Below are positions 55,033-58,978 of a stretch of 64,000 nucleotides of DNA, one piece after another (position 1 is the stretch's first letter; the number at the start of each line of letters is the position of its first letter). The DNA comes from Cyanobium sp. C1_MAG_00004 (GTDB lineage Bacteria > Cyanobacteriota > Cyanobacteriia > PCC-6307 > Cyanobiaceae). The stretch is from NCBI GenBank assembly GCA_027486935.1, contig JAIXOF010000028.1:1-64000 (forward strand), read 5' to 3'. The translations under genes were made by a program, and so were the position numbers. The notes under the pieces are model-generated. The model did not search any database and had not been told where the DNA came from. It was given only the letters and a program-made list of their open reading frames with translations.

Positions 55033-57345
55033 ATGGCGCAGCTTCAAGATCGGCAGCAGCTGGTGACGATCTGGAACCGCATCGCAGGTCAGGACGACAC
55101 CAGCATCCACAACCTGGCCGCCCGCCTGGCCGCCACCTGCAGCGCCGAAGGGGTGAACGTCTGCGAGGCCGAAGCCAAGACCCTGATCCACAGCCTGCAG
55201 CTGCGGGCGATGCCCTCGAGCGGCCAGGGCCGGTTGCTGCTGACTGCCCTGGCGGGCGATCAGACCCTGCGCTGCGCCGAGGCCTATGGCCTGCTGGCCC
55301 AGGCCTGCCCTGAAGGGGTCAACGTCGCAGTGCTGCAGAAACTGCTGCAGATCTTTGAGCTGGAGCCCAGCCAAGCCAACGAGATCGCGGTCGCGATCGA
55401 CCGCGACGGCGGCGGACTGATCACCCGCGACGACTTTCTGGCCTATCTGCCGGAGCACTTCTGCCGGCATCCGCGCAGCTACCACGCCTCCCACACCGGC
55501 TACCGCAGGGGCAGGGCAGCAGCCCCCGGCAAGCCTGAGACCAGCAGAGCGGCAACACCGCCAGCGGTCGCCAAGGCATCCGGCAACGCCAACCCCAGCC
55601 TGCAGGCTGGGGGCACATCTCCCCTGCAGCTCCAGATCGGTCTGTTCCGGCTGTTGCAGGGTGCGGCCTACCGCAGTTTCAGGGCCAGCTACTCGGCCAA
55701 CTCAGAAACGCACTTGCGGGCCTACGACCTGCCCTACACGATCGAGAACTTCGGCCGCTTTGTCGAGGCCGCCGTCGACCTGTACAGCGCCCTGGGGGTG
55801 GTCGATGCCGATGCCCGCCAGCCGCTCGAAGACCTGCGCAGCTCGGTGCAGACCGCCCTGTCCGATCTGCACCAGCGCATGGAGTCGTGGCCGACCCTCG
55901 AGCTCAGCGACGCCATGCGCGAAGCCGAAGGCCAGATCGAGTCCGAACTGGAGGTCCTCGACCACGCCCATCAGCTGTTTGCGGCCCTGATCGAGGTGCT
56001 GCTAGTGGCAGGGCTGCAGGGCCATGACCCCCTGCAACTGAGCACCGAAGACCTGCATCACCACGAGCTGAACCGGCTGCGCCACCTCGAAGACCACCGC
56101 GAGCTGAGCGACCACCGCCACAGGGTTGCGGACGAGGGCGCCAACCAGAGGCCCTTTCTGGAGACCTGGCAACGGGTAATCGTCGACGAGAGCGACACCC
56201 GCTACGCCGGCGCGATCATGCCGACCCGCTACTGGTATGAGGACTTCATGCCGAAACTGCTGCGGGCCTGCTCGGTGCGCAGCGTTGACGACATCGCCGC
56301 CCTCGACACAGAAACCGAAGCCGAGCTGGACGCCTGGTTCATCGCCGCCCGCGATGCCGGCGAGTTCGACCGCTATGCCCCTGCGATGCGCCAGCACTTT
56401 CTGGAATGCCCGCACTGGGTCAAGCAGGAACTGCGCCTGGCCTGGCGCCTGACCCGCCATTACCTCAATGGTGTGCAGAAGCGCCGCGAACGGGAAGAGT
56501 TTGGCCGGGGAGACGGCTACATCACCGAGTATGTGGCCTTTTTGGATGTCTATCTGGGTCGCAGCGACATTGCCGACTCAGAGATGCGGCTCAGCTTCCC
56601 CTATTACCTGGGGCCAGCCACCTGGCGGTTGCTGCACACCAGCGCCGAGCTCATTGCCGAGCGTCCCGAGGCTGAACAGGGACATCTGGTGGAGCTGTTC
56701 AAGCGCTTCTTCGCCGCGATGGCGACGATGTACCCCTGCCCGTATTGCCGCTTCCACCTCAACCGCTATGTGGTGCGCAACAAGGAAGTGCACCTCTACC
56801 CGATCGAGTACCTGCTGCTGGGTCCCCAGGACAGCGGGCAACCTCAGATCGAGGTGACGGTCGACCAGAAGCTGAGCGTCATCCACGACGGGGCCAGCCT
56901 GCGGCTGTTCGTGTGGAAGCTGCACAACACCGTCTCGGCCTCGATCGCCCGCAGCGAACCCTGGTTCCACCGCGACGACCACGCCCATTACACGACCCGC
57001 TACTGGCCCAGCCTCGATTCCGAGCTGGCCCGGGCCCAGGCCCTGGCACAGCAGGCGATCGAGACCGAGCGCATCAGCCGCATCTATGGGGTGCTCAAGC
57101 ATGCGGCTCACCTGGGCGTGTTACGGGACGAGCTGCAGATGGCCCTGCACCGGCCCGGCTCAGACGAGCTGCGTCTGGTCTGGGAGCGGGCCGAGGCGAT
57201 CGTCGCCGCCGCCGAGCAGGCGGTGCTGAGCTCGCGCTTTCTGCAGCAGAGCTACCACTACAACCCGGCGCTGGAGCTCGAAGACCCTCACTTCACCCCC
57301 GAAGAGGAAGCCCTGGCCCGCAGCGGTTTCTTTGTCGAAACCTGA
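55033..57345 (+). CDS. Large protein with EF-hand and ERV/ALR-like sulfhydryl oxidase domain
   Basis: Protein of 770 residues without signal peptide or membrane helix. Around residues 123-134, DRDGGGLITRDD fits an EF-hand loop (D-x-D-x-G-x-x-I-x-x-D/E). The region 520-650 resembles an ERV/ALR flavin-linked sulfhydryl oxidase: GPATWRLLHTSA (527-538), MYPCPYCRFHL with CPYC at 569-572, and WKLHNTVSASIAR with HN at 631-632. These match the order and spacing of family motifs GxxxWxxLH, YPCxxC and HNxVN. A second, distal shuttle cysteine pair and the C-terminal structural pair were not found. The rest, including a helical N-terminal region and a Glu/His-rich stretch (LSTEDLHHHELNRLRHLEDH), has no recognised domain. 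A possible Ca2+-responsive disulfide former is an inference. Unusual for a bacterium. Confidence 0.7.
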   Translation: MAQLQDRQQLVTIWNRIAGQDDTSIHNLAARLAATCSAEGVNVCEAEAKTLIHSLQLRAMPSSGQGRLLLTALAGDQTLRCAEAYGLLAQACPEGVNVAVLQKLLQIFELEPSQANEIAVAIDRDGGGLITRDDFLAYLPEHFCRHPRSYHASHTGYRRGRAAAPGKPETSRAATPPAVAKASGNANPSLQAGGTSPLQLQIGLFRLLQGAAYRSFRASYSANSETHLRAYDLPYTIENFGRFVEAAVDLYSALGVVDADARQPLEDLRSSVQTALSDLHQRMESWPTLELSDAMREAEGQIESELEVLDHAHQLFAALIEVLLVAGLQGHDPLQLSTEDLHHHELNRLRHLEDHRELSDHRHRVADEGANQRPFLETWQRVIVDESDTRYAGAIMPTRYWYEDFMPKLLRACSVRSVDDIAALDTETEAELDAWFIAARDAGEFDRYAPAMRQHFLECPHWVKQELRLAWRLTRHYLNGVQKRREREEFGRGDGYITEYVAFLDVYLGRSDIADSEMRLSFPYYLGPATWRLLHTSAELIAERPEAEQGHLVELFKRFFAAMATMYPCPYCRFHLNRYVVRNKEVHLYPIEYLLLGPQDSGQPQIEVTVDQKLSVIHDGASLRLFVWKLHNTVSASIARSEPWFHRDDHAHYTTRYWPSLDSELARAQALAQQAIETERISRIYGVLKHAAHLGVLRDELQMALHRPGSDELRLVWERAEAIVAAAEQAVLSSRFLQQSYHYNPALELEDPHFTPEEEALARSGFFVET

Positions 57346-57359
57346 GCCAGGCGGCCGAC

Positions 57360-58934
57360 TCAGGCCGGCAGCGCCCAGGGGTTCAGGCCCAGGTCGGCAC
57401 CGATGCGGTGGGCGCAGGCAAAACCACTGAAGGCCACGGCGTTAAGCCCTTGGCCCGGAAAGCAGCTGTCACCGACGCAGTACAGGCCGCGCAACCCCGT
57501 GCGGTTGAACGGCATCGGCAGCAGCCCCGGCAGGCGCAAGGCCGGAATCGGCCCATAGCTTCCGCCCATGCGCCCCAGAAAGCGACGGTGGCTGCGGGGG
57601 GTGCCCACCTCCTGGTGGTGAATGGCCCCGCCCAGCCCCGGCAGGATCGCCTCGAGCCGGGAGATCAGCCGTGCCGCATCAGCCTCCTTTTTGGCTTTGT
57701 AGGCAGCCGGCCCCAGGCCCTGCCACTGCTCTATGGCACTGGGGGTAAAGGTGTGCACGATGTGGCGCCCCCCCGGCGCCAGCGACGGGTCGAGCAGGGT
57801 CGGCATCGACACGAAAATGACGCCTTGCTCGGCCTCCATGGCCGCCCAGTCTTCGAGCAGCAGGTGGTGGCAGTGGAAGCCCTCGGGCACCACAGCTGCA
57901 TCGATGCCCAGGTGCAGTGACAAAAACGACGGCGACGGCTTGTAGCGGCGCCGCCAGGTGGTCTCGGCTTTGGGAGTCTGCGCCAGGTCAACCAGGGGCT
58001 TTTCCATGGCCCCTTCGCTGCCCGGCTGCCCCCCAAAGGTGTCCCAACGGGTGGCGTTGCTCACCACAAGGCCCGCCCTGATCTGCTCGCCGCTGGCCAG
58101 CTGCACCCCCACGGCGCGGGCCGCTGCGCCTTCGCCTTCAAGCAACACCTTGGTGACGCGGCTGCGGTAGCGAATGGCGCCGCCGTGGCGCTCCAGACCC
58201 GCCACCAGCTTGCGTGCGATGACGCCAACGCCCCCCTTGGGGTAGTTGATGCCGCCGGCATGGCGATCGGAGAACACCATCCCCGCATTGATCATCGGCG
58301 TCAGGTCGGCCGGCATCACCGACCAGCAGAAGCACTCCATGTCGATGAAGCGCAGCAGTTGCTCGTCTTTGATGTGGGCGCGGGCCACATCACCCACGTT
58401 GACCGGCAGCCAGCGGGCCAGGCCCAGACAGGCCAACGGCGCCCTGAAGAACACCTTGGCCAGGTAGGCGGGGTCCTCGAGCGAAAGCAGGGGCATCGCG
58501 TCGAGGCAGTTGAACACCTGCCAGCAGGTGTCATAAAAAGCGCGAATCCCCTTGGCCTCGTGGGGAAACAGGGCGCTCAGCCGCGCCACGAAGCTGTCGT
58601 AGTCGCGATCGACCGCCACCTCAAGGCCACCGGGCAGGTGGTATTCGAGCTGGGCCGGGTCGGGCACGGTCTCACAGTGCTCGCCCACATCGGCAAGGGC
58701 CCGGGTCAGAAGGTTGGTGTGACCCCGCTCGCCGAAGCCAAAGATCATCGAGGCGCCCACATCAAAGGTGTAACCAGCGCGCTCAAAACTGCCGCCCGAG
58801 CCCCCCGGGATCAGATACCGCTCGAGCACCAGGGTGCGGGCCCCCTTGACCGCCAGCTGGCTGGCGGTCACCAGACCGCCGATGCCGCTACCGATCACGA
58901 TGACATCCCAGTCAGCAGAAGGGCTGGCGCTCAC
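57360..58934 (-). CDS. crtH: Carotenoid isomerase CrtH-like (CRTISO) flavoprotein
   Basis: Protein of 524 residues from GTG 58934 (TTG 58949 also possible). Rossmann motif WDVIVIGSGIGGLVTASQLA with the ending VLERYLIPGGSGGSFERAGY; GASMIFGFGERGH; INYPKGGVGVIARKLVAGLE; and the C-terminal GLYCVGDSCFPGQGLNAVAFSG match CRTISO-type proteins. They isomerise poly-cis lycopene to all-trans in a redox-dependent way, needed for carotenoids in the dark. Convergent with the ERV gene at only 14 bases. Confidence 0.9.
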   Translation of the reverse strand: MSASPSADWDVIVIGSGIGGLVTASQLAVKGARTLVLERYLIPGGSGGSFERAGYTFDVGASMIFGFGERGHTNLLTRALADVGEHCETVPDPAQLEYHLPGGLEVAVDRDYDSFVARLSALFPHEAKGIRAFYDTCWQVFNCLDAMPLLSLEDPAYLAKVFFRAPLACLGLARWLPVNVGDVARAHIKDEQLLRFIDMECFCWSVMPADLTPMINAGMVFSDRHAGGINYPKGGVGVIARKLVAGLERHGGAIRYRSRVTKVLLEGEGAAARAVGVQLASGEQIRAGLVVSNATRWDTFGGQPGSEGAMEKPLVDLAQTPKAETTWRRRYKPSPSFLSLHLGIDAAVVPEGFHCHHLLLEDWAAMEAEQGVIFVSMPTLLDPSLAPGGRHIVHTFTPSAIEQWQGLGPAAYKAKKEADAARLISRLEAILPGLGGAIHHQEVGTPRSHRRFLGRMGGSYGPIPALRLPGLLPMPFNRTGLRGLYCVGDSCFPGQGLNAVAFSGFACAHRIGADLGLNPWALPA

Positions 58935-58978
58935 CGTTGGGCCTTGCAAGATGAGCCGACCCTAGGTGCCAGCCAACC

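Follow-up and report, generated by a model that had tools for sequence, protein, structure and literature searches.

A Cyanobium member of a bacterial protein family that joins an ERV/ALR-type sulfhydryl oxidase domain to a calmodulin-like domain, here eroded

To our knowledge, clear effectors of Ca2+ signals are scarce in bacteria. ERV/ALR flavin oxidases, which make disulfides, are best known from mitochondria, eukaryotes and large viruses. In a 64,000-nucleotide stretch of Cyanobium sp. C1_MAG_00004 (contig JAIXOF010000028.1, positions 1 to 64,000; hereafter, the window), one open reading frame was originally predicted to combine an EF-hand with an ERV/ALR domain in a possible, undescribed Ca2+-linked thiol-oxidation system. 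The locus raises the question of whether this protein is indeed a sulfhydryl oxidase and whether it is linked to Ca2+.

A conserved gene with an ERV/ALR domain

The 770-aa ORF, which begins with ATG in the ORF list, is genuine, conserved and under selection. Dozens of homologues could be aligned with almost the whole protein, and the nearest same-genus copy showed 74.8% aa identity. Codon-position identities with this copy were 0.831, 0.857 and 0.592; the third position is clearly more diverged than the first and second, indicating that the gene is under selection. The window protein represents, in eroded form, a bacterial family whose intact members combine a calmodulin-like sensor, a middle domain and an ERV oxidase; the gene has the following features (L, G and C in labels below denote locus, genome and contig, respectively).

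55033..57345, + strand: whole gene, calmodulin-like/ERV family protein of the eroded EF-hand type, 770 aa (ORF list and full-length homologues)
55033..55464, + strand: eroded calmodulin-like domain, residues 1-144 (alignment with relatives having 2-4 canonical loops; model)
55399..55434, + strand: remnant fourth EF-hand loop DRDGGGLITRDD, residues 123-134 (4/6 key positions)
55465..55605, + strand: linker, residues 145-191, low-confidence, probably disordered (pLDDT, alignment)
55606..56592, + strand: mostly helical middle domain, residues 192-520, no known family (Pfam and PDB searches, co-occurrence)
56608..56979, + strand: ERV/ALR-type FAD sulfhydryl oxidase domain, residues 526-649 (Pfam PF04777, PDB profile matches, Foldseek)
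56737..56748, + strand: CPYC, residues 569-572, predicted FAD-proximal redox disulfide (cysteine counts, model)
56914..56934, + strand: WKLHNTV, residues 628-634, predicted FAD-contacting helix 4 motif (invariance, Arabidopsis Erv1 counterpart)
56980..57342, + strand: C-terminal helical region, residues 650-770, conserved, no known family (alignment, model)

The ERV motif series of the window protein (GPATWRLLH 527-535, YPCPYC 567-572 and HNTV 631-634) did not recur in any of 200,000 shuffled versions of the protein. PF04777 (Evr1_Alr) was the one Pfam family above cut-off (35.7 bits versus 27.6 bits, E 1.1e-8, residues 529-584) and was present in all 60 relatives of a 60-sequence alignment. 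Across this alignment, C569, C572, H631 and N632 were invariant, as were W628, K629, L630 and V634, and the HNTV of the window protein has an HNTV counterpart in Arabidopsis Erv1. The motif order that had been predicted was thus borne out, whereas the claim of correct spacing was not entirely: CPYC and HN lie 61 residues apart in most relatives, a stretch longer by some 30 residues than its counterpart in the aligned Arabidopsis Erv1. This longer stretch and the usual replacement of the closing Asn of HNxVN by Ser or Ala are departures from the textbook ERV.

Searches beyond Pfam led to the same proteins. The best PDB matches of a family profile covering residues 505-668 were Arabidopsis Erv1, yeast Erv1 and Erv2, and ALR (E from 8.8e-6). 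Because the full-length model yielded no informative matches in a fold search, the ERV segment was modelled by AF2 in isolation, with moderate confidence (pLDDT 65, pTM 0.64). Helices predicted at 528-542, 546-566, 570-577, 620-640 and 643-647 match the ERV order (alpha1-alpha4, then alpha5), and CPYC lies at the N-terminus of alpha3 in this moderate-confidence model. The top six Foldseek matches in the PDB were all ALR or Erv2, and the top ten also included Erv1 and mimivirus R596 (TM-score up to 0.55 of target); with a moderate model and weak E-values (best 0.39), the ranking agrees with an ERV fold but is short of conclusive.

It is very improbable that the resemblance is merely a short helical CxxC similarity in a domain with another function. 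The PF04777 match spans only about 54 of 93 Pfam positions in the window protein, which, like the weak Foldseek E-values, would fit such a reading. However, that match is above cut-off, the family recurs in every relative aligned and nearly full-length in some (positions 2-82 of 93 in two members of the same family from complete genomes), profile and fold searches both rank Erv/ALR first, and the HNTV helix sits at the expected place. The ERV domain is therefore genuine, although not new to bacteria in itself, PF04777 having already been recorded in Nostocales, Oscillatoriophycideae, Rhizobiales and Rhodobacterales (PMC10598087).

CPYC is the sole Cys pair invariant in the family; the remaining cysteines are all variable among the 60 sequences, and no further invariant cysteine for a second (shuttle) disulfide was found among them. 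Many ERV/ALR members have a second shuttle disulfide, but not all do, and it is not defining. C261 and C459, each a Cys in 49 of the 60 sequences, were considered as a conserved shuttle pair and rejected because the two positions do not co-vary; residue 261 is Ala in the window protein. Given the lack of an invariant second pair, access of substrate thiols to CPYC is probably direct or mediated by a partner.

The missing second pair could also be taken, together with the extra stretch ahead of helix 4 and the rarity and stand-alone nature of the gene, to point to an FAD- or redox-sensing regulatory protein in which the ERV fold and CPYC are retained for sensing and there is little oxidase turnover. 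The catalytic and flavin motifs remain recognisable and invariant over three phyla, however, and no output domain was recognised, and we regard this reading as improbable compared with a working sulfhydryl oxidase.

Between the N-terminal and ERV domains, residues 146-190 had pLDDT below 50 and were unconserved in the alignment. The middle domain that follows (~330 aa) is strongly conserved, with invariant YWYxDFMPKLL and NGxQKRRER stretches. It had no Pfam match in the window protein, only weak, scattered matches in relatives, and a best E of 0.26 against PDB sequences; its assignment to a known family was therefore rejected. Two overlapping sets of cyanobacterial genomes gave 13 genomes with the middle domain, all of them among the 15 with PF04777, suggesting that this domain is tied to the ERV protein. 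In one of the other two PF04777 genomes (L097, G172), the whole middle domain is deleted, the EF-hand region joins the ERV domain almost directly, and a stop precedes the C-terminal region. This is apparently a decaying copy, indicating that the gene is dispensable in places.

The calmodulin-like domain and its erosion

Most relatives from cyanobacteria and Nannocystis open with a calmodulin-like four-EF-hand domain, and EF-hand Pfam families match up to 50 of the 60 relatives. Identity to calmodulin is about 45-55% in most copies from Nostocales, Oscillatoriales and Nannocystis, with a peak of 55% to vertebrate calmodulin in Nostoc foliaceum (L017); the N-terminal 153 residues of L031 match calmodulin with an E of about 1e-39. 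The four loops are canonical or nearly so in many cyanobacterial and Nannocystis members, and some (e.g., L017, L032, L033, L060 and L069) have four full canonical loops in the calmodulin arrangement.

By comparison, residues 1-144 of the window protein are only 22% identical to calmodulin; the model shows them as paired helices (block pLDDT about 79-92). Canonical paired EF-hand loops were not found: one loop has 4 of 6 key positions, and the EF1-EF3 loops of relatives are unrecognisable in the alignment. The remaining loop, DRDGGGLITRDD, had been noted as EF-hand-like at 123-134. By itself it falls below the Pfam cut-off (EF-hand_7, E = 0.11), and its position 5 is Gly and its position 12 Asp rather than Glu; a loose EF-loop pattern arose in 10 of 20,000 shuffles of the protein, a rate that is rare, yet unremarkable across a whole genome. 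What stands is its homology, as the same alignment columns hold the fourth calmodulin loop of relatives (DHDGDGSIDFEE and similar), which identifies DRDGGGLITRDD as a true EF-hand remnant. A same-genus copy (L084) carries DRDGAGQISRDD at this site. The loop is probably a weak Ca2+ site or none.

The loops retained vary among lineages. EF3 is kept in L086, L087 and L098 (complete genomes, same family), EF4 in the genus of the window, and both EF3 and EF4 in L022 and L039, while copies from Rhodobacterales and Rhizobium have no usable EF loop. That different loops are kept in each lineage fits the expectation of independent erosion. A stand-in EF-hand-pair protein replacing the lost domain was also considered, but none was found elsewhere in the genome at E 0.001. 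With three loops lost, the fourth marginal and the Rhodobacterales and Rhizobium sisters lacking any usable loop, the suggestion that the window protein itself is Ca2+-linked is not supported.

Distribution, genome context and location

A scan of genome contigs identified 80 loci encoding relatives, most nearly whole length, in Nostocales, Oscillatoriales, Synechococcus/Cyanobium, Alphaproteobacteria, other proteobacterial bins and Nannocystis. As several of the source genomes are finished or nearly finished, the family is not a binning artefact. PF04777 was found in 15 of 386 cyanobacterial genomes, in all 15 as the calmodulin-like/ERV family protein. Within the window's genus, 3 of 6 genomes carry it; in the class to which Pararhizobium belongs, it was confined to 1 genome of 385 (Pararhizobium itself), and in the Nannocystis phylum to 2 of 237, one of these being a different protein. 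The gene is thus rare, stand-alone and patchy over three phyla.

In the tree, the window protein grouped with a Cyanobium relative (support 100/99), followed by other Synechococcus and a clade of Rhodobacterales/Rhizobiaceae (support 100/100), and this group lies on a long branch apart from the EF-rich members. Cyanobacteria and Pseudomonadota are each split, suggesting horizontal transfer of the gene, with some uncertainty given the bins and paralogues in the tree. As the tree is without a known root, we infer rather than observe that the four-EF-hand form is ancestral. A viral origin was rejected because no relative was found in phage records or viral contigs, and a plasmid gene because there was a single plasmid record, from Gemmobacter, whose homologue is already annotated as 'ERV1/ALR-related protein'.

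Two loci were unusual. The member on a contig titled Klebsiella pneumoniae MAG (L064) groups with uncultured proteobacterial bins, and this contig is probably mislabelled or from a mixed bin. A minus-strand ORF of 284 aa (L101, G425) has a sulfotransferase-like N-terminus and an ERV-like C-terminal stretch (WTALHVWARSLP ... LHDQVNEALGKPLWC) without CxxC, perhaps a dead ERV domain reused for another purpose.

An operon or partner-gene reading was rejected because neighbours are not conserved across the family. The window gene is followed by a convergent gene of the FAD-dependent amine-oxidase type, carotenoid isomerase-like (57360-58949, - strand); such a gene also follows the family gene in L002, indicating local synteny only among close relatives. 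In five proteobacterial bins (L058, L061, L064, L067 and L071), the ERV gene lies near a conserved gene that has HDxHH and CxxCH motifs and no Pfam match, accompanied in three of the five loci by a gene for a SLAC1-type anion channel. The HDxHH neighbour is limited to this proteobacterial subgroup.

No hydrophobic N-terminus or segment of transmembrane strength was found in the window protein (top 19-residue Kyte-Doolittle mean 1.54, at residue 308). The absence of a segment fit for a signal peptide or transmembrane helix makes a cytosolic site likely, in line with the earlier proposal of a protein without signal peptide and with a possible cytoplasmic role. A thiol oxidase in the reducing cytosol is unusual. 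The same genome encodes two VKOR-thioredoxin fusions (G000 C178:6236-6628 and C141:9807-10205; L082 and L083), both with C-terminal thioredoxin-like segments carrying WCPHC. The ERV oxidase is therefore an addition to VKOR; its replacement of VKOR was rejected, and the implied alternative to a VKOR-DsbA system is not supported.

Proposed function and comparison with known systems

Taken together, we consider it fairly probable that the family protein acts in the cytosol as an FAD-dependent sulfhydryl oxidase with an ERV/ALR fold, that it was ancestrally Ca2+-gated, and that the gate has eroded in picocyanobacterial and alphaproteobacterial copies. The four-helix bundle of the ERV domain is the predicted seat of FAD, and electrons would pass from substrate thiols to the CPYC disulfide, FAD and then O2, yielding a disulfide and H2O2. 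The middle domain likely serves in substrate recognition or regulation. In the putative ancestral form, which would persist in Nostocales, Oscillatoriales and Nannocystis, the N-terminal domain would gate the oxidase with Ca2+, in the manner of the EF-hands of NOX5 or calredoxin. Such gating is a good hypothesis for intact members; it is unlikely in the window copy, which, with the gate eroded in its lineage, is probably Ca2+-independent or weakly Ca2+-responsive.

A more specific version, which we hold tentatively and at somewhat less than even chances, is that of a soluble, calmodulin-type Ca2+-gated sulfhydryl oxidase family in which a calcium signal in the cytosol of cyanobacteria triggers disulfide formation or H2O2 release, the gate being secondarily lost in picocyanobacteria and some Alphaproteobacteria. 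The protein could instead be mainly a regulated H2O2 source, with a generic reductant as thiol substrate and peroxide as the signal, like EF-hand NADPH oxidases. The calmodulin-like gate of relatives and the lack of invariant shuttle cysteines to serve a dedicated disulfide relay favor this, as does the frequent fusion of bacterial calmodulin-like EF-hands to redox domains, including NADPH oxidase (PMC7016017). But the large conserved middle domain points to a specific partner and copies without usable EF loops persist, which makes a primary role as peroxide source unlikely.

If Ca2+-gated thiol oxidation is correct, a single protein would directly couple oxidative thiol chemistry to Ca2+ signalling in bacteria. 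With calmodulin-like sensor and oxidase domain in the same chain, the family opens Ca2+-to-redox signalling in cyanobacteria to direct testing, and the series from intact to eroded EF-hands offers natural material for testing gate function. The family also places an ERV-type oxidase, probably in the cytosol, in bacteria that contain VKOR. No description of a calmodulin-ERV fusion was found in the open-access literature; the predicted novelty of a Ca2+-sensor and thiol-oxidase combination thus survives for relatives with a complete calmodulin-like domain, but a Ca2+ link of the window protein itself is not supported.

The family shares with the ERV/ALR proteins Erv1, Erv2, ALR and mimivirus R596 the G-W-H of helix 1, a YPCxxC that opens helix 3, HNxV in helix 4, the predicted helix order, and profile and fold matches (the latter with weak E-values). 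It differs in some 30 additional residues between CxxC and HN and in having one invariant cysteine pair; the window protein is also longer by some 520 residues N-terminally and about 120 C-terminally, and no targeting segment was found in it. QSOX proteins, which are thioredoxin-ERV fusions known chiefly in eukaryotes, likewise carry the ERV domain behind accessory domains in a single chain. However, none of the 60 members matched a thioredoxin family in Pfam, and the N-terminal domain is calmodulin-like. Cyanobacterial VKOR-thioredoxin proteins also make disulfides, but are membrane, quinone-linked enzymes that act outside the cytosol.

Cyanobacterial fusions of calmodulin-like EF-hands listed in PMC7016017 include 7TM, Tic110-like, NOS, NADPH oxidase and other partners, with no ERV in the passages covered; the same paper infers that calmodulin came from cyanobacteria or actinobacteria. 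EF-hand NADPH oxidases of the NOX5 type, which have bacterial counterparts (PMC7016017), similarly combine calmodulin-like EF-hands with an O2-using flavin redox enzyme, but one that is a membrane haem/NADPH enzyme without the ERV fold or CxxC chemistry. Calredoxin of Chlamydomonas, in which Ca2+ controls redox activity (PMC4911631), unites, like the EF-rich relatives, four calmodulin-type EF-hands and a thiol-redox domain in a single chain; its thioredoxin is reductive, whereas the ERV domain of the family would be oxidative, and the EF-hands of the window copy are eroded.
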